Shown here one piece after another: positions 3,001-61,156 of a stretch of DNA of 64,000 nucleotides. The DNA is from Echinarachnius parma (lineage: Eukaryota; Echinodermata; Echinoidea; Clypeasteroida; Echinarachniidae). The first letter of the stretch is position 1, and every line of letters starts with the position of its first letter. The stretch is from positions 137,001 through 201,000 of the forward strand of contig JBAMJV010003250.1 of the NCBI GenBank assembly GCA_037951105.1, in the 5' to 3' direction. The notes beneath the pieces were generated by a model. It had not been told where the DNA came from, ran no database searches, and saw only the letters and a program-made list of their open reading frames with translations. A program made the translations under genes and the position numbers.

Positions 3001-6000
3001 TGGAGGATGATCATAAGATCCTAGGAACTTAAATCTGTGAGCCTTCCATGGAGATGACTGGAGGATGATCATAAGATCCTAGGAACTTAAATCTGTGAGC
3101 CTTCCATGGAGATGACTGGAGGATGATCATAAGATCCTAGGAACTTAAATCTGTGATCCTTCCATGGAGATGACTGGAGGATGATCATAAGATCCTAGGA
3201 ACTTAAATCTGTGAGCCTTCCATAAAGATGACTGGAGGATGATCATAAGATCCTAGGAACTTAAATCTGTGAGCCTTCCATGGAGATGACTGGAGGATGA
3301 TCATAAGATCCTAGGAACTTAAATCTGTGAGCCCTCCATGGAGATGACTGGAGGATGATCATAAGATCCTAGGAACTTAAATCTGTGAGCCTTCCATGGA
3401 GATGACTGGAGGATGATCATAAGATCCTAGGAACTTAAATATGTGAGCCTTCCATGGAGATGACTGGAGGATGATCATAAGATCCTAGGAACTTAAATAT
3501 GTGAGACTTCCATGGAGATGACTGGAGGATGATCATAAGATCCTAGGAACTTAAATCTGTGAGCCTTCCATGGAGATGACTGGAGGATGATCATAAGATC
3601 CTAGGAACTTAAATCTGTGAGCCTTCCATGGAGATGACTGGAGGATGATCATAAGATCCTAGGAACTTAAATCTGTGAGCCTTCCATGGAGATGACTGGA
3701 GGATGATCATAAGATCCTAGGAACTTAAATCTGTGAGCCTTCCATGGAGATGACTGGAGGATGATCATAAGATCCTCGGAACTTAAATCTGTGTGCCTTC
3801 CATGTAGATGACTGGAGGATGATCATAAGATCCTAGGAACTTAAATCTGTGAGACTTCCATGGAGATGACTGGAGGATGATCATAAGATTCTCGGAACTT
3901 AAATCTGTGTGCCTTCCATGGAGATGACTGGAGGATGATCATAAGATCCCAGGAACTTAAATCTGTGAGCCTTCCATGGAGATGACTGGAGGATGATCTG
4001 CATCTTTGTTCACTGTCATGTACTCGGTTTTCTTTGGGTTGAGAAACAGATTGTTAACCTTTGCTGAAGCATTCTCCAGAGAAGCAAGCAGATCTTGGGC
4101 AGTCTGAAGTTATGTTGCTATTAAAGGGAGAGATCCTCTTTTGCAAGCCAAAAGTTGCGAGGTTATTGTATTATATGAAAGGAAATGTCATTTAATAGCA
4201 TGCCTGAAAAATGTAGGGCTTGAAATCTCTTTTTCGTGGAGTTATAGACCTAAAACTTATTAAACTGAGGGACGTCGGTTAAATGGGTACATACGTATTT
4301 TCGGCCGGTGAGTAAGTTCGTACAGAGATTTCACGGAGTGCCAGATCGGTATGCATGACCCCTACGTGACCCTCGCTAGCTACTTGACCCGCGCATAAGT
4401 ACTCATGTGTGATCGTTTACCAACCAAAATACCCAAACATCGCTTAAACTGACTACATGTAATTATATATTCTTTCTTTTTGAGATCTTTTTCCGTGACA
4501 TACGTTAACAAATGTCGGCTTCACAATACCTTTACGAGAATTAGTACTATATTGTTGTAATATTATGCTAAATCAGTTGAACTCCTTTATTGACCGATAT
4601 ATAGTTTAAATGGAGGGACGCATTCGTTTTTCATTCGTAGAATCGTTTTCGTTTTTCATTTGTAGAATCCAAATTAGAGGGCTGTTCGCTCTGATTTTTT
4701 TTTGCGGGTTACATTGATCCCCATCCGTCAACTGAAAGCTGTTCAGACGTTTTGTAAAAGTGGACCTGTCCCTTTAATGCAATGTCATCTGCATACATGT
4801 AGTCAAGATCTGCCAGGTACATGTCTCAGTCACGGTTGGATTTTCCTGGTTTAACATTTTAGATCTTTCTCTTCATGTTCTCCACTCACTGGTTGAAAAT
4901 GTAATCCACAACTATGATGGAGAGATAATGTGCAGGCGTATCCCCTTGAAGTGTACCTGCAGTTGTGTGAAACTCGCTTTTAGGACCAGTCCATGCTAAA
5001 CAAAGGTTGTGTGGTTGTTTATGATGGCAAATGCCTGTTCTATTTTTGGTATGCCATAATTAGCAAGAATTTGAAACATGGGCTTCCTGTTGACACTGTC
5101 AAAAGCCTGGGAAATCATCCTCCCAAGTGTGAGAATCTGAGATGTTCTGGCTCTACCCTTCCGAAAGCCCTTCTGGTTATGACGGAGCGGGGGCTCAGGG
5201 TGAATTAGCCCCTGAAATGCCCAAAAGAGGCCCTGAAAATCATACAAGAGCCCCAGTAAATTTGCAGAGTTCAATGCAAAACACAATTGAGATTGCTATT
5301 TTCATGCAGACAAGCTTGAAAACTGAGTAGCCCCCCGAAAAAGTCTGATGGAAGAGGGAGATCTCCTTTCTTGGGCAGGGGATAATAAGAGAGTTGGAAA
5401 GTGGCTGTGGGATGTTCCCTTCATTATGTTTCATTACAGAAATTTAGCAGAACTTCATAATGAAAAAGTGGGCTTTTTCAGATTGCCAGGACCATGCCCT
5501 GTTTCATAAAACATTTGCAATGGTTGTAAGTGTCCAATTACTGTAACTACCATGATAGCAATTGCTGCAATGCTGCATCCTGATTGGCGGTTGACCTACT
5601 AGTTACAATATTTGGACATTTACAACAATTTGAACAGTTTTTATGATACACGGCCCATGTGTCGTGGACATTTTTAGTCTCCTCAGGAAGTTTAGGAGCT
5701 CCCCAATTGAGAACATACATGTAGCTGTCAGTATGGGAAGGATGCCAGCAATCCTGTCATGAAAGAAATGATCTTGATGATTGGATCTCTATTCATGTTT
5801 GCTATCAAAGTGTTTGTACCAACAGTCCAGTGCCCTGTAACATAAAGATTCATGATTGATTGATCGTACGACAGATTGATTCATCGTATGATTAATCGTA
5901 TGACCAATTAATTGATCGTACAATCAACTTACCAATCGTACGATTAATCGTGAATCTTTATGTTACAGGGCCCAGATGCTCCTCTGCAGTGTTACCCTTA

Positions 6001-12000: not shown

Positions 12001-15000
12001 GAAAATAGTTATTCATACATTACACATACAGCTAGTGTAGTGCACACCACAGCCGATTGTTAAATGACGAATTAGTGTCACGACCACAGAAGGACAACGA
12101 TGCATCATTTTCGGAATTGTTAAATTCGAATAACGCTACGTTATACATGAAATGCATCTCTAGAATATTCTTTGGAACTTATTGATATTCACGGGTGAAA
12201 ATATGCTGTATTTCTTTTTAAATAACTCATTGAGAAAACTCGTCGAGCATCTTTTGCAAGCTAAAACAAGACCTCTGCTCGCAGGGAAGTTTTATAACAC
12301 GAATCTCTATGGACTCAATGTGATCAACCGGCGTCTATGACGTCATTCATGGTATAGCATTTATTATATCCTACATGAATGAAATCCTGTTCAGTGATTG
12401 GTCTACATAGCGTCATGTGACCAAACATAGTAATGCCCATGGAGAAAAATGTGCTATGCGTGACATCATTCATGGTATAGTAAACAAATATACCATGCAC
12501 CGAGAGCCTCTAGTTGAAATTATGGATTCAGAGGTGACAGTAAAAGCACTATTTTCTGAGGGGCGCTAGCCCCGAAGAAAATCAGTGCTTTTTCTGTCAC
12601 CGAGGAATCCTTAATTTCACTAGTGGCTCGAAATAGTGCATGATATATTTGTTTTATATCCTTCGCATAATTATAATCATCCCAAAAATAAATGATTTCA
12701 ATTAAATTACAGTATAATATAAAGGAAAACAAACCATTGATCGTGGAACCATCACTGCACTGACTATATTCTGTTTGTGACACTGACACCTTTGCGCAAT
12801 AGAGTACAAAAGCCATGACGTCATAAAAACACTTTTTTAGAATTTTCAAATTTGGACTTCATTTTCAGAAAGAGCATAACAAATAATGTCCAAATACCGA
12901 AAATCAAAAGAATAGGTTACGTATTGGCTGAGATATGCCCATCCGAATGAATTTTACTTCAATGGGCAATCAGTGTATAATGCACTGGTTCCTAAATTTA
13001 GGAACAGTGTACTATAACACTGATTGCCCATTGACCAAAAAATCATTCGGATGGGCATATCTCGGCCAATACGTAACCTATTCCTTTTATTTCGGTATTT
13101 GGACATTATTTGTTATGCTCTTTCTGAAAATGAAGTCCAAATTTGAAAATTAAAAAAAAAAATGTTCATGACATCATTTATGACATCACACTAGCGCAGG
13201 GCACGTATTGCGTTATCTTTCCATTCATGGTTACGCGCATTAACAACTAATGCGCACCCAAATGCAAAACGCGCGCATCAAAGTGAATAATTAACCCGCT
13301 TTGTTTGTATACACGTGTAATTGAATGGGGAAAAAAGTTATTCGTACATTTCACATACTAGTGCAGTGCAGTGCACGTCGCACACCGCTGATTGTTGAAT
13401 GACGAATTAGTGTCACGACCACAGAAGGACAACGATGCACAATGTGCACCATTGTCGGAATTTTAAAATTTGAATACCACTACGTTATACATGAAATGCA
13501 ACTCTAGAATATTCTTTGGAACTTATTGATATTCACGGGTGAAAATATGCTGTATTTCTTTTTAAATAACTCTTTGGGAAATCTCGTCTTAAACAAGACC
13601 TCTGCTCACAGGGGAGTTAGTATAATGCCCGGCGCAGACAGAGCCGACTCGACCTGATCCGACTGGTTTTCAGCCTGCTTAACTCAGTATGCGCTGCCTC
13701 AGGACTCCGGTTTTTCCAGTCAAGTGCCAGTCGGAGGTCATTCGAGGCCGATTCAACATGTTGGATCGGCTCCGACTAATCGAAACTGACTCTAGCCTGA
13801 CTGAAAACCAGTCGGATCGGGTCGAGTCGGCTCTGTCTGCGCCGGGCTTAACACGCATCTCTATGGGCTCAATATGATCACCCGGGGTCTATGACCCTCC
13901 GAAAATAGTGCTTTTCCTGTCACTTCGGAATCCATAATTTCAACTAGAGGCTCTCAGTGCATGGTATATTTGTTTACTATACCATTAATGATGTCACGCA
14001 TACCACATTTTTCTCCATGGGCATTACTATGTTTGGTCACATGACGCTATGTAGACCAATCACTGAACAGGATTTCATTCATGTAGGAAATAACAACAGT
14101 TATTTATACCGGACAAACACAGAAAAAAGGCAGTGAAATTTAGGCCTAATCTGAGCAGCCTGCATGGAACTTTCAACTGCTATTTTGGCGCGTAATGATA
14201 CTAACGTTCACATTTGACCACATTTCTAAGCCTTTAAAAAAAAATGTTTTTCAACAATATTTCTTGATTTGTGTGGCCAACAAAATATTTTGGGTAATTT
14301 TTTCTTGATGCTCATATTGGGCTTTAACTTTCGAAAAAAACTTTCAAAATATGTCAAATAGAAGCTTCAAGAGTTAAAATGACAATTCAGTGCTTCCCGA
14401 TATTCATACTTCTATATAAAGGGATCTAGTAACTTTGATGACAAGTGCAAAAAGGGATGCGTGGTTGATGAAATGTGTACTGTTGCGATCTGATATGTCC
14501 AGAAAGTAATACGTGAAAATTTCACGTTAATTTGATTTTTGGGGGGCCGAGATCTTAGCAAACATGCAAAATGATATTCAACTCATTGCACTTACTTCGT
14601 ACACGGCTTAAATTATCCAGTAGACAGTTTAACATCTGAACATTTCAATCGTAAATATCTTTTGAACGAAATTTGAAAAACCAAAACCTGTCCCGTGCTT
14701 TTATTGTTAATATGAATATGACAAGGTATGAGAGAACCACTAGAATTCCAAGTAAGTTTTGAGGATTTGGACAATGTTACTTAGTCCCTTCAAGGTGTTA
14801 ACTTACCTAAACAAGAGGGCAGATCATTCGTAAATGTTCCGTCAGATTGACATGTGGCTGAATCAGAGCCAACAAGCAGGTAATCCTCGGAGCAACTGAA
14901 TTGGCAATCTGTATCGTAATCGACAAGAGTTCCTGAGTCGCATGGAATTGCGCCTACAGACTCAAGATGGACGTATGGTTCTACTCGACATCTAACCACT

Positions 15001-18000
15001 GCAATAAAAACAAACAAACAAAAAACACCTTTTTTACAGAAATGAAATTGACAACAAATAATGGTTACTAAACCTTCACATGTTGGCAAGTCACTGGGCA
15101 GTGGCGTAGCGTGGTCGGACTGAATGGGGGGGGGGGGGCACGCAAAATAATTGGGGGCACACCGTACATATTTCTTTGTTTAAAAAAAAATGTCCCCTTA
15201 TGTTTCCTATTGTTTTTTTCTCAAATTATTGGGGGAGGCACGTGCCCCCCCCCCCCCCCCTGTCACAACGACACTGTCACTGGATAGAACACGATCAGAC
15301 TGGCAGGTTGCGCTGGGGTACCCCTTCAGATGATAGCTCTTAGGGCAGGAAAATGAGCACTCCTCTTGCCAAGAAATCACAGAATCACATTTTTTTTTTT
15401 ACAGAAATTAAATTGACAAAAAAAGAAGGTGACTGTACCTTGACATATTGGCAAGTCGCTGGATAGACTATGATCAGACTGGCAGGTTACGCTGGGGTAC
15501 CCCTTCAGAAGATATCCAATGGGGCAGATAAAGGTGCACTCCTCTGGCCAATCGATCTCAGAACCAGCTGCACATGATGAATCTGCTGCAAGTAGCAATG
15601 TGTAGTCCACCAGGGGGCAAGTAACCACTATCAAAAATGGATAAAAAGAGAGAAAATATGTTAAATAAAAGGATAGAACAGTTTTGGATTAGAGGGTGCT
15701 ACAAAAAGTGTTTTTTTGTGAGGTAATGAAAAAAGGGGTAAAATTTGAAGAAATAAATTGAAGGGTTATATTTTCATTATAGTCTATATTGACCTAAATT
15801 TTGCTTTTAAAAAAGATTCATGCTTAATTCATTCATTTACTAGTAAGAACATTTCAAATCAGACTTCACCACAACAACAAAAATGTGCAGTTGCAAAATT
15901 TTCGATAAGCTAGGAATCTTTCAATATGGTAACAGAGAACACGATATGTCAAAAATGTTGTGCATCACCATCATCATCATCACAACCATCACAATCTTCA
16001 TCATCACCACCATCCCCATCACCATCATCACTATCACCATCATCACCACCTTAACCATTACCATCATCATCACCATTACTACCATCACCATTACCGCCAT
16101 CATCACCATTACTACCACCACCATCACCATTACCGCCATCATCACCATTACTACCACCCCCATCACCATTACCATCACCATCATCATCTCAAGTGAACTG
16201 ATGCTACTCACAATAACAGGTTGGTATCTCCAGGGGCCAACACACTGAAGTTGCAGTGCCGTTCATCTCGTAGCCTACGTCACACTCAAAGGAGCACACG
16301 GTACCTTCAAGATATGTGTTATTCTCGGAGCAGTTGCTCCTTAAATTGTCTCCAAGGCTTGGTGTGCACTCCACTGCCAGTCCAGGTAACAAAGAAAAAA
16401 ACATTGAAGCTTGAAGACAACTATTAGATAACCATTAAATACTCCCTAATTCCTTTAATAACAAAATCATGCAAAAAATGAAATGTATTTCAGGAGAGCT
16501 GTAATTATGAGTAGAGTAGCAGCAGGAACAATGCCATTCCAACATGATCAATCTTAATTAGGAAACGTCTGCCAATGTATGATTTTGATATCATGCCCAA
16601 ATCAACTTGCACTAAATTAATGTTGTAAATTTCTTTGTGTGGTCTGGCATTATATTCAACAACCGGGGTAATGTATAGTGTTAAGCGCTTAAACAATGCT
16701 CGAAATTAGCACAGGCCCTATGGCCCGGGGCCACTCAAAATTGCTGACGGGCCAGTAAAAACTCATATTTCCATTGTTTGGTGGCTCTTTCTGAAAATGA
16801 AGTTCAAATTTGAAAATTCTACAAAAAAAGATGTTTATGACGTCATAGATGACATCACACTTCACCACTCTATAGAAATGAAAAGAATTACGAAATCATA
16901 AAAAGTACAATGAATAACTAAATGAATTAACCAATTTAATAAATTGAGCAAAAAAGGACACACGTACCCTTAGGAAAAAAACACGGGACAAACTAACAAA
17001 CCAATCCTACAACTATACGTGATGATTGGGCCAAAGAAAGAAAAAAGACTAGCATTTGATCCAGTAAAACAATAAAAAAGATTGATATTACTAATTGAAA
17101 AACATGTTGTATGAATATTTCATGAAGGAGTAGAATCATTAAATGGTCAACATTTCCGATATTTGTTCTAAAAATCATTATATGATATGGGAGAAATGTA
17201 AAACTCACACAGACAGTCTGGAAGATGAAACATGTGATCATCTTCGCAGGTTCCCTCAGTTCGTTCGCCGACCGCACCATATCCATCTGCACATTTAAAG
17301 CAAGTTGTACCGCTGTGCACCTGCACCGGCGTTGCTGGGTCACCACATTCTGCGTGGGCCGCATCTTCGTACATTACTAGAGAAGCATTTACTGCAGCTG
17401 AAGGAAAGCTCACATTTGTCCAGCACAGTGCTGTAGTGTGGCAATTCAAAATGAGCAATTATGAATGGATAAACGCAGCTATATATAAGCGCAGTTCTGA
17501 CAGCATCGTATATGTACATGTACATGTATGTACATTATTTAAAATGGAAAGCATATTTTCACAAAGAAACCGCAGATCAAAGGGTCGAGTTGTGGGAGCC
17601 AATGCAAAGTAGGGCAATTTTGAAAATATTCATCCTTCGACAAGCAGCACTAGCATTTATATTGAACCAGTACCGTATTTGCCGGTCTATAAGCTGTTGC
17701 TGTGTATTAACCGCACCCCAACTCTGGGTTGTCATTGAAGGGGAATTTTTTTTTGTAGATGACAAAACTGTGCTGGGAATCTTTGCAATATAACTATAAC
17801 TATAACTATATCAAACTATACACACATCCCATACTTTCCCCTCCTTTTGTAAATTTTAGTCACATACTTGATTCTGATTGGAGCATAATACAAAACAGAA
17901 AAGTCAATCAAGCTTTTTACTGATAATATAGCCATACATTGTATGTCGTCTTTTCATGAAATATGTTTTTCTATCTCTGTGTATTTATAACCACTACCCC

Positions 18001-41000: not shown

Positions 41001-44000
41001 ATGGTAAATCATATTGACAATATCAATGCATTTTGCAATATTTCACTTTTGACTTTGCCCCATATTCGGATGTAATGCACACTCCATGATAAAATATCCA
41101 TAACAAATGTCACACCAATGTAAAGGGGGGAAATAAGTTTTCCAATGATACCAAATTTATGAACAGTAATACAGTAATAGGAGAGATATGAACGCTCAAA
41201 CATGAAATGTGGAACTTTTTTGCAATAATCTGTGTACAAATCAAACATAATGATAGTTTATCAATCAGTCAATAAAACACAGCATATCTTCCTAACAACA
41301 TACACAAACGTTAGTGCACCACTCTTTAAAATCATACTGACACATTTCATCCTCCAAAGAAAATAATACGCCAATGACATTCATGCATGACCGACTTAAC
41401 ATCATTCAGAACACTTTATTCTTCCAACAAATGGAGGGTACACTGTCGACAATATCAATGCATTTTGCGACATTTCACTTTTGACTTTGCCCCATATTCG
41501 GGTGTCATGCACATCACATGATACAATATTCATCGCAAATGTCATATCAATGTAAAGGGGGGAATACAAGCTTTCCAATGATACCAAATTCATGAATGGT
41601 TATAAAGTAACAGGAGAGATATGAACGCTCAAACTTGAATTGCAGAACTTTTTGTGAGGGGTATAGTTGAATGATTGTTTGAAAGAAAATAAAACAACAA
41701 AAAACGTGAAATACATACATGCAAGTTAAAAAAACACTGAAATACATTAATAAGGAAGAACCTGGCACTTCAAATTTTGTTGGTTGTGGTATTATTTCAA
41801 ATGGTCTAAAGAATATATATAGTTCTGCATGTTCAAAAGAGAAACAAGAAAGGTGGTCACTGAATACATGGTAGCCACTAAGACAGGTTTGACTTTATAT
41901 ACATGTACACTGTATCTGTTTGTTGACTCACCTATACACTGTGGAACAGTGCCCGAAAACTCCCCATCTATCAAGCATTCCATACCATCCTCTGACTGGT
42001 ATAACGTGAGGTCACCATTCGTACAGCTGAATTCGCAGACGGTGCCGACTGGGACTTCTGCATTCGCTGGACAGTTGCTTGAAGTTATGGATTGGAAGGC
42101 ACTGTAATCCCACACAGGACAGGTTACAGCTGAAATTAATGAATCGAGAAAATACCATAATAAGAGGTCAAAATTAAGAGTAAATAACATTTTTTAAAAC
42201 TGCATCTATGTAGGTTTCCTGTCATTCCAGACTACATTGTATAGAACCCTGCATCCACACGTCACTTTATGTAAGCTCAAAAGCTATTGCTAAACAAATA
42301 CAAAAAGGGAGCAATAAGAAAATGTTTGATTAAAAATATAGCTTGATATGCAATGAGTAAGGTATCATTTTAACCCCTTAATTCTAAGAGGACCGAGTCC
42401 CCCAGGTCCCGGGAGGCTTGTTTATAAATAGAGATATGGAACCGCGTTTTGTATTAAAGGGTACCACCACCCAAAAATAATATTCTTATTAAAGAAAGGT
42501 AACATCTTTAGTATTCCATTCCATCAACAAGTTCACAGAATATGTTTCCAGAAAAAAAAAAAATTGGAAACGCATCACCATTCTAAAGCAATGCGTTCAT
42601 GCGGTCTGAATGCGAAGACTGCGATGCGTGCGGTGAATTGCGATGTGTGTGTAGAGCAAACGAATCACTCGGGAATCTACATTGTATTGTCTACAAACGT
42701 ACGCGTGAATAGCATTGGCGCACTCGCAAATGGTTGGCCCGTATAGAACCAGGAAATAGCAGTGCATGGTTCCGTAAGTGGTGGAAATTAATTGCTTTGT
42801 TTATGAATTACACAACCCTTCGCAAAATGTTGGGTATCTATTTGATATCACAAAACGGTACCAAAACATATAATAATGTGTTGTTCTTTGCCTGGTGGTC
42901 CCCTTTAAGTTTTGGGCAAACATACCCCAATCAAACCCATACCCCAATGAACCCTTTAGTATTATCAGTTAGTTTTGTGGACGTGCTATATAGGGTTATT
43001 TAGTCAATGTTTCACAATAATTGCTGAAGTGATTCCCTTTTGCACAGATACTTGAAACATAAACACTTACCAACACATGTGGGTAAAGCATTAGATAGAA
43101 CACCAGCTGCAAGACATGTGGTTGAGGGACTTCCCTCTAGGATGTATCCGGGGTCGCACCAAAACTCACAGAGCGATCCATGGCTGATGCCAATATCCGG
43201 TAGGCAATCCCCAGAAAGCTGAGCACTGTACGACCCCAGTTGACAAAGAGCTACAGTACGCAGAAGTAATGAAAACAAGAGGAATAGAGATCGAACTACA
43301 TGTAATGCTGAAATGTATTAACAAATTTGAAAAATACAATATGGCAATGTTATATGAAGTTAATCTCCTCGATTTGGCGATTACTCCGACACGCAAAATT
43401 CTCACACCTTGTTGCTATGTGACTTTTTCAAACTCTACTTGTGCATCTTTTTATACCAAATTTGCGTGCGTTGCGACTACGGTTGTGGTGTCACATGTCA
43501 TTATAAGGTCACATGTCACGCACAAAAATGCAACAAAAGTGGTTTCCCATTAAATGCATGGTAATTTTCAAGGATGCAAAAATCTCCATTTCCAACTGTA
43601 AAACCTTTATTAGAATTAAAAATACCTTTTGAGAAGATTTATAATGACACAAAATAAACAAACCAGAACAAAAATTACAACAAAGAAATACAAAAGAAAT
43701 TCAATTCAATTAAATTTGTAACATGTTTTTTAAATTTTTGTCTGGTTTTGATGAGCTTTTTTCTTTCTTTTTTGTACAAAATATATCAAGCTGAACCCCC
43801 CCAAAAACAACTTCTTGAAAACATTTGCATGTCCATACAAATGCCAGAAATTTAAAAAAGAACAAAACATTGAAAATAACAATTTGCATAATTAGCTCTA
43901 ATTTGCATACTGCTGCAACTAATGTTAATTTAATGTAGATTACATTGGAAAGTATTAGCACACTAGATTTGGTCGAGATCATATGCATAAAAGCTGAGAT

Positions 44001-47000: not shown

Positions 47001-48966
47001 ACATTTCTTCATGTCAACATTTCTGTGAATAGAATATTGACTGAAAAGCCATTATTTGTCCAGGTAATTTATATTGCTGAATAACAATTACTATTCCCAA
47101 GATGTGATTCAAACTCAGTGTGTCTCTGTGCTATGATCACTCCAAGGGGTATTACTAGTATTAGCTCCCATTAACTGTTACTTATGAGGAAAAATCTGTA
47201 ATATATTGGGGCATAACTGTGTTTAGGGAGTGGAGATGGTGCAAACAATGTGTGCTGGTTTGCATTGTATCCTATGACTGGGGGTAATAATATCAATGTA
47301 ACTACGCTTAGAGATGATTATCAATCATATTAGGCGCTATATATAAATCAAGTATATTATATATTATTATTATTACTGACGGGACAAAATCTGTAATGGC
47401 CAACTTAACTGTGTTACTAACGAGACCAAATCTGTAATATATTGGGACCAACTTACCCATGTTATCAATGAGGCATTCTGAGACATAATCTTGACAGCAA
47501 TCTTCATCGACTAAGCATGAAGAGTCACAATTGCACCCAGATGCTTGGCCACCACCACAGTCTTCTGCACATGACATTTCTGAAGGGGCTGTATAGGCAA
47601 AAAAAGATCAACTTTATAAGAACATGATAGATTTACATGTACAGTGGAGCTATACTTCCTCATGGTATTTACACTTAGTAACATTGTCCAAATCCTCGAA
47701 ATACAATTGGAATTCTAGCAGTTCCCTCATACCTTGTTGTATTCGCATTATAATTAACAATAAAATCATGGGACAGGTTTTGGTTTTTCAAATTTCCCTT
47801 TCGTTAAAAAGATATTTACGATTGAAGTGTTCAGATGTTAAATAATCCAACGGATCGCGAAAACCGTGCACAAAGTGAGTGCAATGAGTTTGTGAACATC
47901 ACTTTGCATTTTTGCTCATTACTCGGCCATATAACGTCCATTTGACTTGAAATTTTCACACAATACCCTGTGGACATAACAGATAACAATAATATAAATC
48001 ATATCAACCATTCATCACTTGTTGCACATGTCAACAAAGTTACTAGATCCCTTTAAAGGGAACAGCCACCCAATAATAATATTCTTGTAAATGAAAGGTA
48101 ACATCTTTAGTACTCCATTCCACCAACAAGTTCAGAAAATATTTTTCCAGAAAAAAATTATATAATTGGAAAACATATCACCATGGTTACAGTCCGTTAT
48201 TCCGAAGGTTCGTTATTCCGAAGGTTCAGTTATTCCGAAGGTTCGTTATTCCGAAGGTTCGTTATTCCGAAGGTTCGTTATTCCGAAGGTTCGTTATTCC
48301 GAAGGTTCGTTGATCCGAAAATAAAATCGGGTTCGTTATTCCGAAGGTTCGTTATTCCGAAGGTTCGTTGATCCGAAAATAAAATCGGGTTCGTTATTCC
48401 GAAGGTTCGTTAGTCCTAAAATGAAATAGGGTTCGTTAATCCGAAAATTAAATAAATACGACGTAGAAAAGAATTGAGTTGATTTGATTTTGAGCAGTGT
48501 GGACTTGGGAAAGGGGATCAATCTTACTCTAATTGCCGTGGCTGCATGGGGGGGGTGGGGGAGAAGGGGAGGGGGGCAAAGAGTGGCTTTACAATTCTAG
48601 TCAAATTGTATTTTATTTTTCTTTGTAAAACAGTGCAATATGATGAGATATATATATTTATATCTTTCTCATGTAAACAAACATGAAATAAAACCAAAAT
48701 CAATTTGATATAATTATAATTATGTCATAAAGTTAGATTTTGCTGCTTGATATCAGTCCAAAATCACATTGTATTTGTCTGAATTGTATGTATTTCATCA
48801 TAAATAGCAACTAAGGGCAGGGGTGGGTGTCCCCCCCCCCCCCCCCCCCCCCCCAGTTTAGAGTTTTTACTCTCTTTTCCAATAAATTTAGATAAAAGCC
48901 ATGATTTAAATTGATTTGGGAGGGGGGCCCATGACACCCCCCCCCCCCCCACCACTACTCCAGTGC

Positions 48967-48997
<31 letters not shown>

Positions 48998-51900
48998 TGC
49001 ACACACACCCTATTTCATTTTCGGATTAACGAACCCTAATTCATTTTCGGAATAACGAACCTTCGGAATAACAAACCCGATTTCATTTTAGGAATAGCGG
49101 ACCTTCGGAATAACGAACCTTCGGAATAAAGAACCTTCGGAATAACGAACCTTCGGAATAACGAACCCGATTTCATTTTAGGAATAGCGAACCTTCGGAA
49201 TAACGAACCTTCGGAATAACGAACCTTCGGAATAATGCAACAAATGTTCGGATTAACGAACCCTATTTCATTTTCGGATTAACGAACACTCAGGTATAGG
49301 AAATTTGCGTGTTCGGAATAACGAACCTTCGGAATAACGAACCTTCGGAATAACGAACCTTCGGAATAACGAACCTTCGGAATAACGAACCGCACCCATC
49401 ACCATACAAAAGCATGCATTCATGGGTTTGCATACAAAGACTACCTAGGGCAAACGCATCGTCAGGGATTCTATTGTCTCCAAACGTACGCATGAGCGCA
49501 GTCTCAGACGTTTGGCGCATACGGAACCATGGGGTCATGCATGCTGGTTCCGTATGTGGTGGTAATTAATTGTATTGTTTATGAATTACACAACCCTTTG
49601 CAAAGTGTTGAGCATCTATTTAAAGGGGTAGTACAGTTTTGGTAAGGCTGAGCTTTAGTAACCAAAACCTGCACAATAACATTTATACACACTAATAGTT
49701 ATAACTCCACCATGCTCGAAAGGTATAGAAATGTTCATACGACTAAGTAAAAAGCCTGTTATCATTCAAAAAGAGTCATTAAAACACAAGAGGGTGCTTT
49801 TAAAAAAGTATTGGTTTCAACCATTTTTCATACAAAATTATGCATGTGATGTTTTGTTGAAATAGAGAGATAATCAACAATTTATAAACCTCTTTCGAAC
49901 ATTTTTGAAAAAGTGTAAGCATTTTAATTTTAATTTTTTAGATCATCAAATAATTTATTCCGATTGAACTGATTTTGATCAAATAAAAGTTCATTCTGCC
50001 ATTAAAGGGATAGTTGAGTTTTGGTAGAGAGGGCGCTACACAAAATAAATTTTTTGTGAGATAATGAAAAACTGAGTGTCAAATTTGAAAGAGCATACAA
50101 TTTTAATGGCAGAATAAACTTTATTTGATCAAAATCGGTTCAGAAACGGCTGAAATATCCATAAACATAACCATTTGTAATTAATGTGGGGCCCCACAAG
50201 TATCTAATCACTATTTCAACAAAACATCACATGCACAATATTTTTATTTAAAATGGTTTAAACAAATGCGTTTTTTAAAAGCGCCCCCTTTAGTTTAAAC
50301 AGCTCTTTTTGAATGATAACAGGCTTTTTACTTGGTAGTTTGTAATTTTTGTATTCCTTTTGAGCATGGTGGAGTTATAACTATTAGTTTGTAATGTAGG
50401 TGCAGGTTTTGGTTACTCAAATTCAGTTTGACTAAAACTGTACTCCAGGGGCGGATCTAGCTTCGTTATTCCGAAGGTTCGTTATTCCGAAGGTTCGTTG
50501 ATCCGAAAATAAAATTGGGTTTGTTATTTCAAAGGTTCGTTATTCCGAAGGTTCGTTGATCCGAAAATAAAATCGGGTTCGTTATTCCGAAGGTTCGTTA
50601 TTCCGAAGGTTCGTTAATACGAAAATTAAATAAATATGATGTAGAAAAGAATTGAGTTGATTTGATTTTGAGCAGTGTGGACTTGGGAAAGTGGATCAAT
50701 CTTACTCTAATTGCCGTGGCTGCATGGGGGGTGGGGGAGAAGGGGAGGGGGGCAAAGAGTGGCTTTACAATTCTAGTCAAATTGTATTTAATTTTTCTTT
50801 GTAAAACAGTGCAATAAGAATGAGATATATATATTTATATCTTTCTCATGTAAAAAAACATGAAATAAAACCAAAATCAATTTGATATAATTATAATTAT
50901 GTCATAAAGTTAGATTTTGCTGCTTGATAACAGTCCAAAATCACATTTTATTTGTCTGAATTGTATGTATTTCATCATAAATAGCAACTAAGGGCAGGGG
51001 GGGGGGGGGTTGCTATTTTGAATCCCCGCAAGTGATGTTTCCCACATCACATTTTCACTTGGCAGCCCAAGGGGGGGGGGGGATTGTTCCCTTTTTAATG
51101 TTCATGATTCCTTCATGCATGCATGTTTATGCTTTATTAATGTAAAAGTTAATTTGTATTATTTAGATGTGAATGTAAAATCATTTTGTAGGGTAGTGGC
51201 GTAATGAGCGAAAAATTGTTTGCATCACCACCGGATAATGCGAAGGAGCGAAGCAACCAAGCCTGAAGGACCGAAGCAACTGAGGGGTGTCCCCCCCCCC
51301 CCCCCCCCCCCCCTGTTAGGGAGCTTTGGCATTTTTGTAATTGAAACTGTGCAATCTGAGTTTTTACTCTCTTTTCCAATAAAATTAGATAAAAGCCATG
51401 ATTTAAATTGATTTGGGAGGGGGGCCCATGACACCCCCCACCACTACGCCAGTGCACACACACACACACACACCCTCCCAGCTAGCTACCTGACGTTGGG
51501 TCAATGTCGGAATTTGGTTGCCGGATGTCGGCATATCGCCGTTGGCTCGAGGTTAAAATGTCCGCCAGCCCAACATCGTCACCACGTCATTTTTGTGATA
51601 TATTGGCACAAGGTCATTTTCCGACAATGGCCCAACATCATGTCATGAGATGATGTTGGGCCATTGTCGGAAAATGACGTTATGCCAATATATCACAAAA
51701 ATGACGTTGTGACGATGTTGGGCTGGCGGACATTTTAACCTCGAGCCAACGGCGATATGCCGACATCCGGCAACCAAATTCCGACATCGGCCCAACGTCA
51801 GGTGGCTAGCTGGGCTATTTCATTTTTGGATTAACGAACCCTAATTCATTTTAGGAATAGCGAACCTTCGGAATAACGAACCTTCGGAATAACGAACCCG

Positions 51901-54900
51901 ATTTCATTTTAAGAATAGCGAACCTTCGGAATAAAGAACCTTCGGAATAACGAACCTTCGGAATAACGGAATAACGAACCTTCGGAATAACGAACCTTCG
52001 GAATAATGCAACAAATGTTCGGATTAACGAACCCTATTTCATTTTCGGATTAACGAACACTCAGGTATAGGATATTTGCGTGTTCGGAATAACGAACCGC
52101 ACCCATTTTGCCAATGACGATGCAGATACTGTGTGGGTCTGGACACATGATGGCGTTTTTCTATGCACATCACATTTTCACTTGGCAGCCCAAAGGGGGG
52201 GGGGGGGGGGGGTTTAAACCCTCTAAACCCCCCCCCCCCCCCCCCCCGTAGATCCGCGCCTGTACTCTCTCTACCAGAACTCAACTATCCCTTTAAAATT
52301 GTATGCTCTTTTAAATTTTACACTCAGTTTTTCATTATCTCACAAAAAAATTATTTTGTGCAGCGCCCTCTATACCAAAACTGTACTACCCCTTTAATAT
52401 CACACAACGGTACCAAAATATATGCGTGGTGGTCCCCTCTAAAGAGATCTGGTAACTGACGAAGGGTTGTATGTGTATCTACTGTAATTGTGTGATATGA
52501 TATGTCCACTGAGTGATGTCTAAAAATGTCATTGTATAATTAATGTCAATATGTCCGAGTAAAGAGCAAAAAAGAAAATTAGTAATGTTTGCTAACTCAT
52601 TGCACTAATGCCTCGGTCACACCTTTGCGTATTGGGCTTGCGTATTGCTGCGTATTGCTCGAACGCAGACATACGCAGACACACCCAATAAAGCGCAATG
52701 ATGCGAGCTCACTACGTACTCAATACGCAGACTAGCGCATGGGCCTGCGTATGTCGCTCGCTAGTTTTAAAATTGTCTAAACTCTCGCAAGCAAACGCAA
52801 GGTCAAATTGCATACGAGCGGGAGCGAGTGACAACCAGTGAAAGCGAGCAACAGCGAGCGACAGCGAGTGACCTAGCGCAGGTATACGCAATCATTCGCA
52901 CCTCATTTTTTTAGAGCGCGTGTCACTGCGTATAGCTGCGTTTCCCATACGATTTACCTCGCTGTAGCTCGTTGTCGTTCGCATGATTGCGCGTATTACT
53001 GCGCTGTAGCTCGCACACCGCTCCTAGCAACACGAATCACTGCGCAATGTGGCGAGCACACTGCGTATTGAATCGTACTGCTTCGAGCAACAGCGAGCTA
53101 AAGCGGGACCATAGGCAACCATAGGCAACCGTACGCAGTCTCTATACGAGCTACATACGCAAAAGTGTGACTGCTAACTTCAAAATCGCTGCGTATTGCT
53201 GGGTAAGGCTGCGTATTGATATACCCCGCCTAGCGCAGCAATACGCAGCAACATACGCAAAGGTGTGACCGAGGCACAACGTTGCACACAATTTGAAATC
53301 TCCCAGAAAGAAACTTCCAATCCAAACACTTCAATCATAAATATCTGTCTAACGAAAGATAAATTCTTGAAAAAAAAAACCTGCTCCATGCTTCTATTGG
53401 TAATATTACAACAATGCAGCATAAGTATTATTTTTTTGGTGATATTACGATAACAATTATCATGGCAGAGGAATTTAAACTCTACCAGAGCTAGGGGCTT
53501 AAATATTAAGTGACTGTATTTTCCTACGACTCTTTATTTCTGTAATCCATCCCTAGGATTATGTCATTTACGTCACAAGCGATTTGACCTAAGACGCTTT
53601 ATAGTCTTATTTGTCTCTGTTTTGTATCTGTGCTTTCATAATAGCGCGCTTTCGCGCCTACATTCAAATTGACATTCAAATTGAGTTTTGTTTTCTTCAG
53701 TCTAATAATTAAACCCTGACGAAGCCCTATGGGCGAAAATTCGGAAACTATGTTTTCATACAGGGTTGTGTTTGTCTATTTCAATACACCGACCCAGACC
53801 AACTTTTAAAACTATCTTTAATAGTACTTGATGTTTTCTTCAGTTATGTAATTGTATATTGAAACTACACTGCAGCTAGCTCTGCATTAATAGTCACTGG
53901 ACCACTATTTGCTTGCTGTATAGAGTGGTGAAGTGCGATGTCATCTATGACGTCATAAGCATCTATTTTTAGAATTGTCAAATTTGAACTTCATTTTCCG
54001 AAAGAGCGTCAAAAATAATGTCCAAATGCCGAAAATCAATTGAATATGTTAAGTATTGGCTGAGATATGCCCATCCAAATGATTTTTTAAAACTTCAATG
54101 GGCAATCAGTGTTACAGTATAGTGCTCTGGTTCATAAAGATTATGAACCAGAGCACTATAACACTGACCTTGACCATTGACCTCATGACCCCAAAATTGT
54201 ATGGCTACATTGGCTTCCTTAGAAACATTCAGTACTCAAGTGTACATTTAAGAGGCCTGATGTCTCCTCTTATATTATTTCAAACATCTAGGGAAACTGA
54301 CCAGAAATTAAAATGACCAAATAAAATTGGGCTTCCCCGGGATACAACCCTTGACCCAATTTAACAGAGGAGCTTTCTAGCTCAGTTGGTAGAGCGCCAG
54401 TCCAGCAATCCAGGTGTCTCGGGTTCGAATTACAAGGGAAACCCAAATTTCTTTGCTCGATCATTTTCATTGCTATTTCTATATTTCAGGGGACTTACTG
54501 TAACAACCGTCAAATTGGGGCCAATAAAATGAGCCGGTTATTAAGCAGGTCATTGATAGAGGCTCAACAATCCGAGCAAGCACACTGAAGTTTGTTCCAG
54601 GGCTGCATTCAAAGTAGCACGTTTCGTTGACTCCGACGATACTATTATCTGCACAAGTACCCACAAGGTTTAAAGAGGTGTCCAACTCTCCTACAGTACA
54701 TGTGATTTCTGCAGAAAAACAAAACAAAAACAGTTTTAAAATGGCATACATGCTTCGTTATACATCCATTTTTCCAAAAAATGTATAAATTATCTTGTAT
54801 ATATAAACGAAAGGTGAACTAATACATACAGCTTTGGTTTCTTCCAATATTTAAATAATGCAAGGAATAATCATAAATGATTGAGAAGGAAGAATAATAG

Positions 54901-57900
54901 GCGTAGCTTAATAAGCATTGTTCCTCCCTTTAATCGTCCAAATGAAACAAGAGCCCCAGGGGGGCACGACGCTCACCTGAGGTCAATCAATTCACATCTG
55001 GCGCATGTTCTCTCTGGCACCCTCAGAAGATATGAAATCAGTTGAAATCATGCCAAAATCTATAATGTGATGTACTATTTAATCAATAACTTTTGATCCC
55101 CTGTACCTAACATTATGATTTACCATAATGTTTGGGTGAATCATAAAAAAAAACAGACACACATATAAGACAAAGCTTAACACATTTCACCAGCCACTGA
55201 CCACTTCAGCATATTAACCCCACTCACATAGGGACCCTATGGGGCCATTCTGCGATGGCCTGTCATACTTCTGGATCTTGAGAAGAAGATATTTAAAATT
55301 AACATATTTTTTACACTTGGTGCCCTCCCCCAGGGCCCCCCTGAGGGCCACGCCCACCATTTTAGCAACTTCGATTCCTCTACCCCTAAGGATGATTCCT
55401 GCCATGTTTGGTTGGAATCTAATCATTGGTTCTGGAGAAGAAGATGAAAATGTATATTTCCTATGGTAGGGCCCCAAAAAAAACTGTTACGCCCACAGGG
55501 CCCTTGTGGGGCCACCCACAAAAATCTTGTGAACAACTTTCATTCTTCATCAATAGAGGCATCTACATATGAAATATCAGGTCTGTCATACTTCTGGATC
55601 TTGAGAAGAAGATGTTTAAAATTTACATATTTTTTACACTTGGTGCCCTCCTCCAGGGCCCCCCTGGGGGCCACTCCCACCATTTTAGCAACTTTGGTTC
55701 CTCTACCCCTAAAGATGATTCCTGCCATGTTTGGTTGGAATCTAATCATTGATTCTGGAGAAGAAGATGAAAATGTATATTTCCTATCAGCATATTAACC
55801 CCACTCACATAGGGACCCTATGGGGCCATTCTGCGATGGCCTGTCATACTTCTGGATCTTGAGAAGAAGATATTTAAAATTAACATATTTTTTACACTTG
55901 GTGCCCTCCCCCAGGGCCCCCCTGAGGGCCACGCCCACCATTTTAGCAACTTCGATTCCTCTACCCCTAAGGATGATTCCTGCCATGTTTGGTTGGAATC
56001 TAATCATTGGTTCTGGAGAAGAAGATGAAAATGTATATTTCCTATGGTAGGGCCCCAAAAAAAACTGTTACGCCCACAGGCCCTTGTGGGGCCACCCACA
56101 AAAATCTTGTGAACAACTTTCATTCTTCATCAATAGAGGCATCTACATATGAAATATCAGGTCTGTCATACTTCTGGATCTTGAGAAGAAGATGTTTAAA
56201 AATTACATATTTTTTACACTTGGTGCCCTCCTCCAGGCCCCCCTGGGGGCCACTCCCACCATTTTAGCAACTTTGGTTCCTCTACCCCTAAAGATGATTC
56301 CTGCCATGTTTGGTTGGAATCTAATCATTGATTCTGGAGAAGAAGATGAAAATGTATATTTCCTATGGTAGGGCCCCCAAAAAAACTGTTACGCCACAGG
56401 GCCCTTATGGGACCACCCACAAAAATCTTGTGAACAACTTTCATTCTTCATCAATAGAGGCATCTAAATATGAAATATCAGGTCTGTCATACTTCTGGAT
56501 CTAGAGAAGAAGATGTTTAAAATTTACATATTTTTTACATTTGGTGCCCTCCCCCAGGGCCCCCTGGGGGCCACGCCCACCATTTTAGCAACTTTGGTTC
56601 CTCTACCCCTAAATATGATTCCTGCCAAGTTTGGTTGGAATCCGATCATTGGTTCTGGAGAAGAAGATGAAAATGTAAAAAGTTTACGGACGACGGACGA
56701 CGGACGACGCACGACGCACGACGGACGACGGACGACGGACGACGGACGAAAAGCGATCACAATAGCTCACTTGAGCCTTTGGCTCAGGTGAGCTAAAAAG
56801 GCACTGGTCGAAAAATTGGTCTCCGCCAGGACTCGAACCCGGGTCTCCAGCTTGGAACGCTGACGCCTTAACCACTAGGCCACGGGGACCGTGTGATTGA
56901 AGACAGATCCGAATTCAGGTCATTGGCAAGCCAATCTCTCGGCCCTTTGTACTCAATTAATTCATGGGGAAGGAGTTACGAACAATGCAAGCCGCCTGTA
57001 CTTCAGGTGGATCACAAAGGAGTGATTCAAGTATTAGTTAGAACATATATATAAACGAAAGGTGAACTAATACATACAGCTTTGGTTTCTTCCAATATTT
57101 AAATAATGCAAGGAATAATCATAAATGATTGAGAAGGAAGAATAATAGGCGTAGCTTAATAAGCATTGTTCCTCCCTTTAATCCTCCAAATGAAAAAAGG
57201 CACTGGTCGAAAAATTGGTCTCCGCCAGGACTCGAACCCGGGTCTCCAGCTTGGAACGCTGACGCCTTAACCACTAGGCCACGGGGACCGTGTGATTGAA
57301 GACAGATCCGAATTCAGGTCATTGGCAAGCCAATCTCTCGGCCCTTTGTACTCGATTAATTCATGGGGAAGAAGTTACGAACAATGCAAGCCGCCTGTAC
57401 TTCAGCTGGATCACAAAGGAGTGATTCAAGTATTAGTTAGAACATATATATAAACGAAAGGTGAACTAATACATACAGCTTTGGTTTCTTCCAATATTTA
57501 AATAATGCAAGGAATAATCATAAATGATTGAGAAGGAAGAATAATAGGCGTAGCTTAATAAGCATTGTTCCTCCCTTTAATCCTCCAAATGAAAAAAGGC
57601 ACTGGTCGAAAAATTGGTCTCCGCCAGGACTCGAACCCGGGTCTCCAGCTTGGAACGCTGACGCCTTAACCACTAGGCCACGGGGACCGTGTGATTGAAG
57701 ACAGATCCGAATTCAGGTCATTGGCAAGCCAATCTCTCGGCCCTTTGTACTCAATTAATTCATGGGGAAGGAGTTACGAACAATGCAAGCCGCCTGTACT
57801 TCAGCTGGATCACAAAGGAGTGATTCAAGTATTAGTTAGAACATATATATAAACGAAAGGTGAACTAATACATACAACTTTGGTTTCTTCCAATATTTAA

Positions 57901-60900
57901 ATAATGCAAGGAATAATCATAAATGATTGAGAAGGAAGAATAATAATAATATACAAGAATAATTATCTTGTATATATATATGTTTAAACAAATTTGAACG
58001 AAACATGCAATCAAAACATTGTGAACCTGACTATAAACATCAAGTCATGTAGTTTCCTCCTAGGTATGCACCAGAGCGCACACAATAAAAAGTCAAAATG
58101 GATGCCTCCGCCATTGCACGATTTATACGAGCAGAGTCACCTTTGACCTTCGACCATTTACATCTCAGTTCATTGGCTCCTGAAGATACATACATGTACT
58201 AAGTAATATGGCAATCTACCACCAAATCTTGAGATATCACGATTAAGGGCTATTTTTGGCATACAATGAGCCCTGTGACCTTCGACATCATAACCCCAAA
58301 ATATAGTCAGTTCTTTTGCTCCTCAAGATACACGTACCAAATTTGGTGACAATAAGTCAATTGGTTCTTGAGATATCGCGATAACGAGCTATTTTTGCAC
58401 ATATAATGAGCCCTATGACCTTTGACCTCATGACCCCAAAATCTAATCAAATCATTGGCTCCTCAAGATACATACAAAGTTTGGTGGAAATCTGTCAACC
58501 GGTTCTTGAGATATCGCGAAAACAGGCCATTTTTGCATACATAATGAGCCCTGTGACCTTTGACTTTGTGACCCCAAAATATAATCAGTTCATTGGCTCC
58601 TCAAGATACATACATCTACTAAGTTTGGTGGAAATCTGTTAACCGGTTCTTGAGATATCGCGATAACAAAAACGGGACGGACGGACGCAACTTCGTTGCG
58701 GAGGCATAAAAAGCTTCCTACCGTGCCCCTCCCACTCTACCCCAACTTTAGTTATTTTGCTCTCTCTCAATGTCTCACTTCTGTTTCAAAGTTGGCAACC
58801 CTGGACATATAAAGTGGCCTCACTGGAACCTGGATAATGGGTTAACAAACTTGCACTTACTATCATTAAATTCAAGGAATTGTGCAATTTACCACACATG
58901 GGCCTCGATTGTAAGTTACAATTAATTAAAAGTCCGAAAATTTGAGCGTTTCAACCAATCAGATTTGCACATTTATAACACATGATCTGACTTACAATCG
59001 ATTGTATCTCTTTCTGCAACGGGGCAAAGGTGTATATATTCATTATTAATAAATGAAGGGGGGAAAATGCATACTAGTACAATGAACATGTAAGAGAACA
59101 TGCCTGTTCACATCAATCAGCTTTGTTTAATCCGCTTGGTGTTTCTTTACACTGATAATTATAATATCCACCACCATAACCAATTAATACCCGACCCTAA
59201 TCCTAAAATAGGATAAATATTAGTACATTAATGCGCTACAGAGCATTCTCAGTCTTGAGATAAGTCAGCCTCCTTCAATTTCAAAGATTCTTTCAAAAAA
59301 TACCACATAAGGTCACAATGGTAACCATGTCAACCATATGCCTTAAACACATATATCTGACTTACCCTCACAAGTAAATGAGCTGCCTAAAGCACTGGTA
59401 CCATTGCCACATGTGAAGTTTACAGTAGGAGAATTTGGCAGTCGATACCCTTGGCTCGCGTCACAGTCAAAGGAACATACGTGTCCTTCACGAACAGTAG
59501 CACCGGGGGGGCAGGTTCCATCTACATCTACGACTCCAGGCATGAAGCTGCTAGTCACATTGCAATCCGCTGTTCAAGAAACAACAACAAACATTAGAAA
59601 CAGGGCGCTAGTACAATTTGATGGTAGGTCCCCGTACAGAGTTACTCACAACTATATAATATAATCCTTACCCTTACCCTCAGTGGCGTAGGCTACGGTA
59701 TAGCTACAGGGGGGGGGGGGGCACAAAACAATGTAAAACATAAGGTGTGCCCCATAAGGTGTTCCCCCAATCTGTCCGACCATGCTATGTCACTGCTAAT
59801 CCTAATCCTAATCATATTGCTAATTAAGATAAGGGTTTGGGTTAAGGTTAGATAATTCATTGTAATTATGGGCAAACTTAGGATTGTTTTGTGAGGTTGC
59901 GTACCAAAAGCATTAGCACCTATACATTTTTATATTTTAGGTGCTCATCAAATAATGATTTTATAAGCATATTGCACAAGAATCTGAATCGAGATCCACA
60001 TACATGTAACAAACATTAAATCTAAAGCATGCATATATGTTTGCCAGTTTATTAACTGCAGGTTTTTCCCGAAAAAAGAACCTGCGAGGAAGGAGGTGCG
60101 GTTAATAAACAAAGCTCAACATTAGCAATGGCCCAGTAGCCCGGGCCACAAAAAAGGGGAAAAAATAGATTTAGGTAGCCCGATCAGGCCACAAAAATTT
60201 ATACAAATATATGGTGCACGCAAATAAGTACATAATGAGAAATTTGTCTGCCCTGCCCCACAGTCTTCAAATAATGGGCGTTCCGTGTGAGGCGCTTCTA
60301 GCTCTCGCACCAATGACTCCAGAAAATTTGCCCCCCCCCCCCCCCCCAAATCACAAAAATGGATAGACACCTCTGACTTTAAACCCTTTATTGCCTCTAT
60401 TGTGCATTGTACTATACTTGACCAGCTACTTTATGTTGCAAATATGCACATTAAAATATATATTTATTTTTTTTCGGGGGGGGGGGGGGGAGGGGGGTTT
60501 GCTAGCTTCAAATTTACTAGGGTTAGGGTTTGGATTTGGTTTGGGTTTCGGGTTTGGTTTATAATAGTTATTGTTAGAACTATAAACTTAATAAACCCTA
60601 ACCCTGCCTAATTAACCTCACTCCTATAAACCATTTATCTTATTAACCCTATTCCGAGGATAAATCTAGAATCTAGCAAGATTATATGTGGTTAGTTCTT
60701 TACGCAAAGTTAGCAACCAAAAATAATATTATTCTCCCAAAGTGCACATTTGTCAGTCTGTAGTACCTACCTACACATGCTCCAATGAAGTCATCATAAG
60801 AGTTAGCGTCAACGCAGGCCAGTATAGGACTTAACACGTTATCCCGCACTGAAAATCCAGAGTTACAAAACACCTCACAGACTGTTCCCTCCGTTACATT

Positions 60901-60965: not shown

Positions 60966-61156
60966 CTGTAAAATACCAGAATGGGGAGAGGAAAGGAAAG
61001 CTAGAAAGTCTAAGCAATATTTTACTTGGATAGTTCGAACCATCAAAAAGTTTAGAAAAATAGGTTTTCAGAAAAATCTTACCATAATTTGAAAACTCAT
61101 CATCATATGTTCAAGGGTCTGCAGAAGAAAGCATCATCTATTGTGCAGGAACTTAA
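60966..61156. other. Sequence upstream of E1
   Basis: E1 acceptor tract and unassigned sequence; no promoter elements identified. Confidence 0.5.

Follow-up and report, generated by a model that had tools for sequence, protein, structure and literature searches.

Foldback transposons share long inverted arms made of short tandem repeats, fixed ends with target duplications of constant length, and arms and middles that vary from copy to copy. In the sea urchin Strongylocentrotus, the TU elements are modular foldbacks that differ in their middles, have arms built of tandem repeats of ~15 bp, and make 8-bp duplications. FB elements in Drosophila are built on a unit other than the one described here and generate 9-bp duplications.

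Several further systems have been described. Muta1 and Muta5, which are Mutator-like elements of Aedes aegypti, have arms consisting of a short terminal motif and nine copies of a 12-15 bp subterminal repeat. They are flanked by duplications of 8 or 9 bp, and there are hundreds of non-autonomous copies in which both the number of units and the middles vary (PMC5225508). Tm1, a Phantom/Mutator foldback of root-knot nematodes, displays two asymmetric motifs (CGGTTAA and CCTACCC) outside arms that are composed of a variable number of 13-15 bp units, has short middles, and includes some truncated copies without duplications (PMC3169594). In Drosophila, Galileo has a transposase of the P type and makes 7-bp duplications; its F group contains internal repeats of ~210 bp, and there are chimeric copies whose duplications do not match (PMC3573991).

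Two foldback elements in the window

The window, i.e. the whole 64,000-nucleotide stretch of Echinarachnius parma DNA that was analyzed, contains 49 matches to a 16-bp unit (GGTTCGTTATTCCGAA) when up to two mismatches are allowed, whereas 100 shuffles gave 0.04 on average. All of these matches lie within 48191-52098, in two elements named FB1 and FB2, and in both the unit is in forward orientation at the left and in reverse orientation at the right. Foldback transposons were what the sequence-only reading had seen here, which is upheld by these inverted unit arms and by the fixed ends and 8-bp duplications described below. FB1 is intact, with termini GGTTACAG... on the left and ...GCACCC on the right; its ends read GGTTACAGTCCG... 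on one side and GGGTGCGGTTCG... (read inward) on the other. It had been recognized correctly as an element, but its borders, originally set at 48194-49391, are corrected to 48185-49397 because the outermost full unit does not reach the true ends, which are different on each side. The coordinates of FB1, FB2, and their parts are listed in Table 1.

Table 1. Features of the two foldback elements and of the repeat that hosts FB2 (window coordinates)
Feature	Position	Length	Strand	Basis
FB1, intact non-autonomous foldback with type I middle	48185..49397	1213 bp	+	
Left copy of FB1 8-bp target duplication ATCACCAT	48177..48184			
Right copy of FB1 8-bp target duplication ATCACCAT	49398..49405			
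FB1 left arm: end GGTTACAGTCC, then forward 16-bp units and 26-bp variants	48185..48455		+	
FB1 type I middle, approximate borders; contains a C run and a CA run, without long frame	48456..49010		+	
FB1 right arm: units in inverse orientation, a spacer of 23 bp, and the end GCACCC (inward GGGTGC)	49011..49397		-	
FB2, member of the family of FB1; right end preserved, left end lost, target duplication not seen	about 50460..52104		+	
FB2 left arm, truncated; inner border approximate	50460..50632		+	
FB2 right arm, end GCACCC; inner border approximate	51815..52104		-	
Repeat hosting FB2: ends CAGGGGCGGATCTAG / CGCGCCTG, 5-bp flanks TACTC	50446..52262		+	by eye

FB2, as proposed earlier, is a copy of the same family, although its borders are about 50460-52104 rather than 50461-52098. 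The first 382 bp of the FB1 middle are 96.9% identical to FB2, and the two middles have four direct repeats in common (D6, D7, D10, and D11, 86-98%). Further repeats are inserted in the middle of FB2, including a palindrome at 51477-51814. This palindrome, which consists of two 169-nt arms that are 96% complementary and have no spacer, is probably a separate short inverted-repeat transposon. FB2 itself lies in another repeat, an FB2-free copy of which was found in a second locus (L048, within 151-700, flanks CTCGG). When the two were compared by eye, FB2 was seen to take the place of a G-rich stretch near the left end of the host repeat, so that FB2 has lost its left end and the host repeat has lost a portion of its sequence. 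This damage is likely to result from a deletion after insertion, or from a rearrangement.

Other repeats surround the two elements. Two inverted pairs flank or adjoin FB2 (50001-50109 with 52290-52398, 92%; 49729-49838 with 50240-50349, 74% complementary), and pieces such as TTAAAGGGATAGTTGAGTTTTGG recur in several of the fetched loci. Tandem repeats are found at 1852-3998, where a 58-bp unit is present in 37 copies with 98% matches, and at 56795-57945, where a 399-bp unit is present in 2.9 copies and three minus-strand tRNA genes occur, one per unit. Three tRNAs were the only Rfam matches in the window. As assessed using Pfam, four of the nine frames scanned match Sushi (SCR) repeats, at 1417-1860 (just below the Pfam cut-off), 14793-15179, 41795-42193, and 60703-61110 (minus strand). 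FB1 and FB2 therefore probably lie either inside a Sushi-domain gene, in one of its introns, or between such genes.

Ends, target duplications, and arms of the family

Exact matches to the 16-mer number 47,052 in the genome searched (1.2 Gb; 1,200,326,526 bases in 14,790 contigs), 23,643 of them forward and 23,409 reverse, whereas the reversed 16-mer used as a control has 0 exact matches. Because an FB1-type element contains a mean of 15.7 exact 16-mers, these matches correspond to ~3,000 elements (47,052/15.7), which is a rough figure drawn from a biased sample. A double unit gave 0 matches against viral contigs.

The FB1 middle was used as a query to define the ends of the family. This gave 1518 first-look candidates, 40 of which were scored to yield 75 matched pieces, and the 30 loci that were cut out are the best matches to this middle, FB1 itself being included as L009. 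Paired ends could be set in 27 of the 30 loci, L028, L034, and L036 showing no pair. All 27 have the same two ends as FB1, GGTTACAGTCCG... on one side and GGGTGCGGTTCG... (read inward) on the other; the former is GGTTACAG, or GGGTTACAG in some copies, and the latter is GGGTGCGG. Perfect 8/8 flanks were found in 25 of the 27 paired loci, of which 21 matched as first set and four more after the left end was shifted outward by one base (a G in L012, L019, and L020; a T in L022). The flanks of the other two are imperfect, with 7/8 identities in L015 and 3/8 in L023. Because L013 and L025 share both flank and duplication they were counted as one insertion, so that the 25 perfect loci represent 24 distinct duplications. 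Locus L011 carries a second left end, and the 8 bases in front of both left ends are identical. In L023 both ends are present between unmatched flanks, which makes this locus a candidate for having arisen when two copies underwent exchange.

A second sample, which was not selected by score, consisted of nine regions taken from the first contigs on the 16-mer list. Both ends are visible in seven of these regions, and all seven harbor perfect 8-bp duplications (as assessed by a script using per-locus end strings). The exceptions are a solo arm (L040) and a truncated copy that has lost its right end (L046). Pooling the two samples (24 + 7) gives 31 different sequences out of 31 duplications. Target duplications at independent sites are seen in both samples. 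In 13 of the 31, the duplication starts with GT, compared with a background of about 5.5% in 10 array-free loci; T occupies position 2 in 19 and AC the end in three. Since the GT bias was noticed first and tested afterwards, it is to be taken as a lead.

Could the 16-bp arrays instead be a minisatellite dispersed through segmental duplications, their element-like look being secondary? The L013/L025 pair, with its common flank and duplication, speaks for this, and array numbers do vary as in minisatellites. However, the 31 different duplications abut fixed ends, and the flanks are unrelated. We give this explanation next to no credence, independent 8-bp duplications ruling out both a segmental duplication and a plain minisatellite. 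When we looked at whether all copies lie in one segmental duplication, the outcome that the sequence-only reading had named as contrary to its own proposal, this was found not to be the case. FB1 and FB2 are thus almost certainly copies of a high-copy, non-autonomous foldback family that has transposed.

The two arms follow different plans, as seen by comparing the 27 paired loci. The left arm consists of 16-bp units, usually with one 17-bp variant, and of 26-bp variants, whereas the right arm has 26-bp variants of its own and, in most copies, a 23-bp non-unit spacer. A 26-bp variant is a 16-bp unit with a tail like AATGAAATAG. There are 8-34 units in the left arm and 2-30 in the right arm, in keeping with an earlier suggestion that unit numbers change, and the numbers in the two arms vary nearly independently (correlation of 0.14, n = 27). 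Elements range from 907 to 1898 bp. Two unrelated middles are found between such arms: type I, present in FB1 and FB2, and type II, which is ~170 bp long. Among the eight two-armed copies of the second sample, six have type II and two have type I.

Divergence was determined for the type I core (the first ~380 bp) in an alignment of 29 rows, in which FB1 is counted twice and which is biased to young copies because the rows are best matches to FB1. It has a mean of 1.5% and a maximum of 2.7% over 406 pairs, and the alignment has 14 informative columns, few variants being held in common. Since the best-matching copies differ by only this mean, the spread is recent, and a recent burst of the family is likely despite the bias of the sample.

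Candidate transposases and proposed mechanism

Between 45,128 and 60,700 in the window there is no stop-to-stop frame of at least 120 aa, which agrees with the earlier statement that the middle is without transposase. Among the loci examined, we found no transposase-carrying copy of the family. L040 was considered as a longer copy whose middle might be coding and was rejected, there being no second arm in the following 3.6 kb; it looks like a solo arm beside other repeats.

On balance, we favor the reading that this is a recent cut-and-paste foldback family mobilized in trans, most likely by a Mutator-like transposase. A transposase supplied in trans would recognize the terminal motifs, and the copies of the repeated unit probably provide it with a set of binding sites. 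The element would then be cut out and inserted via an 8-bp staggered cut, and its arrays would lengthen or shorten through slippage or unequal exchange. By analogy, the most likely mover would be a Mutator-like enzyme of the Phantom type, because foldbacks of such build in Aedes and Meloidogyne carry enzymes of this sort; we hold this with much lower confidence than the transposition of the family itself. The 8-bp duplications fall inside the range of 8-10 bp that is given for the Mutator superfamily (PMC6446971). Against the Mutator part of the reading stands the GT start in 13/31 duplications, since Muta1 is described as having little or no site preference (PMC5225508).

A genome search using the Mutator-like profile PF10551 gave 24 matches. 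In eight of these, examined over 2.8-6.8 kb each, no arrays were found; arms lying farther away would escape such an analysis, and failure to find a partner thus counts for little. One of the eight (L053) has one isolated unit match at three mismatches, and its MULE protein was scored by Pfam as MULE alone, with no FLYWCH. In several of these loci the frames are split as by introns, and the eight loci resemble split frames of host type, or repeats of other kinds, and not foldbacks.

GG ends together with 8-bp duplications are also consistent with the rule for Merlin elements, whose ends begin with GG and whose duplications are 8-9 bp (PMC8101967). A Merlin (IS1595-like) transposase might hence move elements of identical anatomy: the family ends begin with GG(G)T, and, according to the same account, the ends of Merlin elements may be imperfect and tandem repeats may occur inside them (PMC8101967). 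The genome has 77 matches to the Merlin-like profile PF12762, some of them in long open frames. However, no arrays were found within the 3.0-3.3 kb examined around each of nine of these 77 matches, and the parts of the Merlin literature that were searched describe none that is a foldback with arms of short units. We consider this mover unlikely. As a separate observation, 26 of the PF12762 matches (1423-1710 in L048 and 25 similar ones) extend from profile position 2 to 103-107 with one TAG each; they represent a dispersed, degenerate Merlin-like family.

P and hAT elements have CA(G)-type ends and site preferences that resemble 8-bp duplications starting with GT. The GT start (13/31) and the T at position 2 (19/31) are like these preferences, and Galileo is a precedent for long repetitive arms driven by an enzyme of the P type (PMC3573991). 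A P-type or hAT-type transposase acting on elements of identical anatomy is therefore plausible but unlikely: the palindrome is only weakly present in its other half (3/31 end with AC), the ends GGTTACAG/GGGTGCGG are unlike those of the CA(G) type, and Galileo duplications are 7 bp (PMC3573991) instead of 8 bp. It is quite improbable that the mover is outside the described superfamilies, as might be proposed from the asymmetric ends, from arrays serving as recognition sites, and from a GT preference oriented to the ends of the element. If that preference is truly oriented to the two different ends, the transposase would treat its ends differently.

Relation to known foldback systems

Taken together, these findings describe a genuine, recently expanded, and apparently undescribed family of a kind that is already known, "undescribed" being provisional. 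The earlier suggestion of an undescribed family thus stands provisionally for the family and falls for the kind, animal foldbacks with 12-15 bp units being known (Muta1/Muta5 and Tm1). No report of the family was found in the open-licence literature, a body of work that is thin on older studies and that has Repbase outside its scope. Matches to four 12-13-mers from the unit are present in 16 papers titled on gene expression and inflammation, none of which is on transposons by title, and these matches are likely to be chance or primers.

The family adds a large and recently spread set of foldbacks with two distinct ends, exchangeable middles, and arm units that can be counted. It offers a natural data set both for the effect of arm length and unit number on transposition and for the way in which arrays internal to transposons seed minisatellites. 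Its numerous inverted arrays are possible hotspots of ectopic exchange, L023 being a candidate product. The general picture of foldback elements is unchanged by this family alone.

Going only by the general description given above, the TU elements may be the closest to the present family. Like FB and Galileo, it has long inverted arms with internal repeats. It differs from FB in its unit and in having 8-bp rather than 9-bp duplications, and the 7-bp duplication characteristic of Galileo is likewise not seen. Tetris in Drosophila virilis is similar in being a non-autonomous foldback with tandem repeats in its arms for which a transposase was likewise not found; it differs in that its repeats are 220 bp, its arms reach 1,735 bp, and three structurally complete copies are reported in an account that also mentions sea urchin foldbacks (PMC4079207).

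With Tm1, the family has in common asymmetric terminal motifs, arms with variable units, short middles, and truncated copies that lack duplications. In contrast to Tm1, which makes 9-bp duplications and is apparently senescent (PMC3169594), the present family looks recently active. Homology between the 16-bp unit and the Tm1 unit was considered and rejected as not significant, the score being reached by 63 of 400 shuffles. With Muta1 and Muta5, it shares short-unit arms, short terminal motifs, 8-bp duplications, and many differing short derivatives. It is distinguished from them by its unit and ends, by perfect duplications of 8 bp that often start with GT, and by a higher, if rough, copy number (~3,000). 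The transposase of Muta1/Muta5 has been identified and is active, whereas the present family is known from its non-autonomous copies. In its build, judged by analogy, the family appears to work like the Mutator-type foldbacks Muta1/Muta5 and Tm1.
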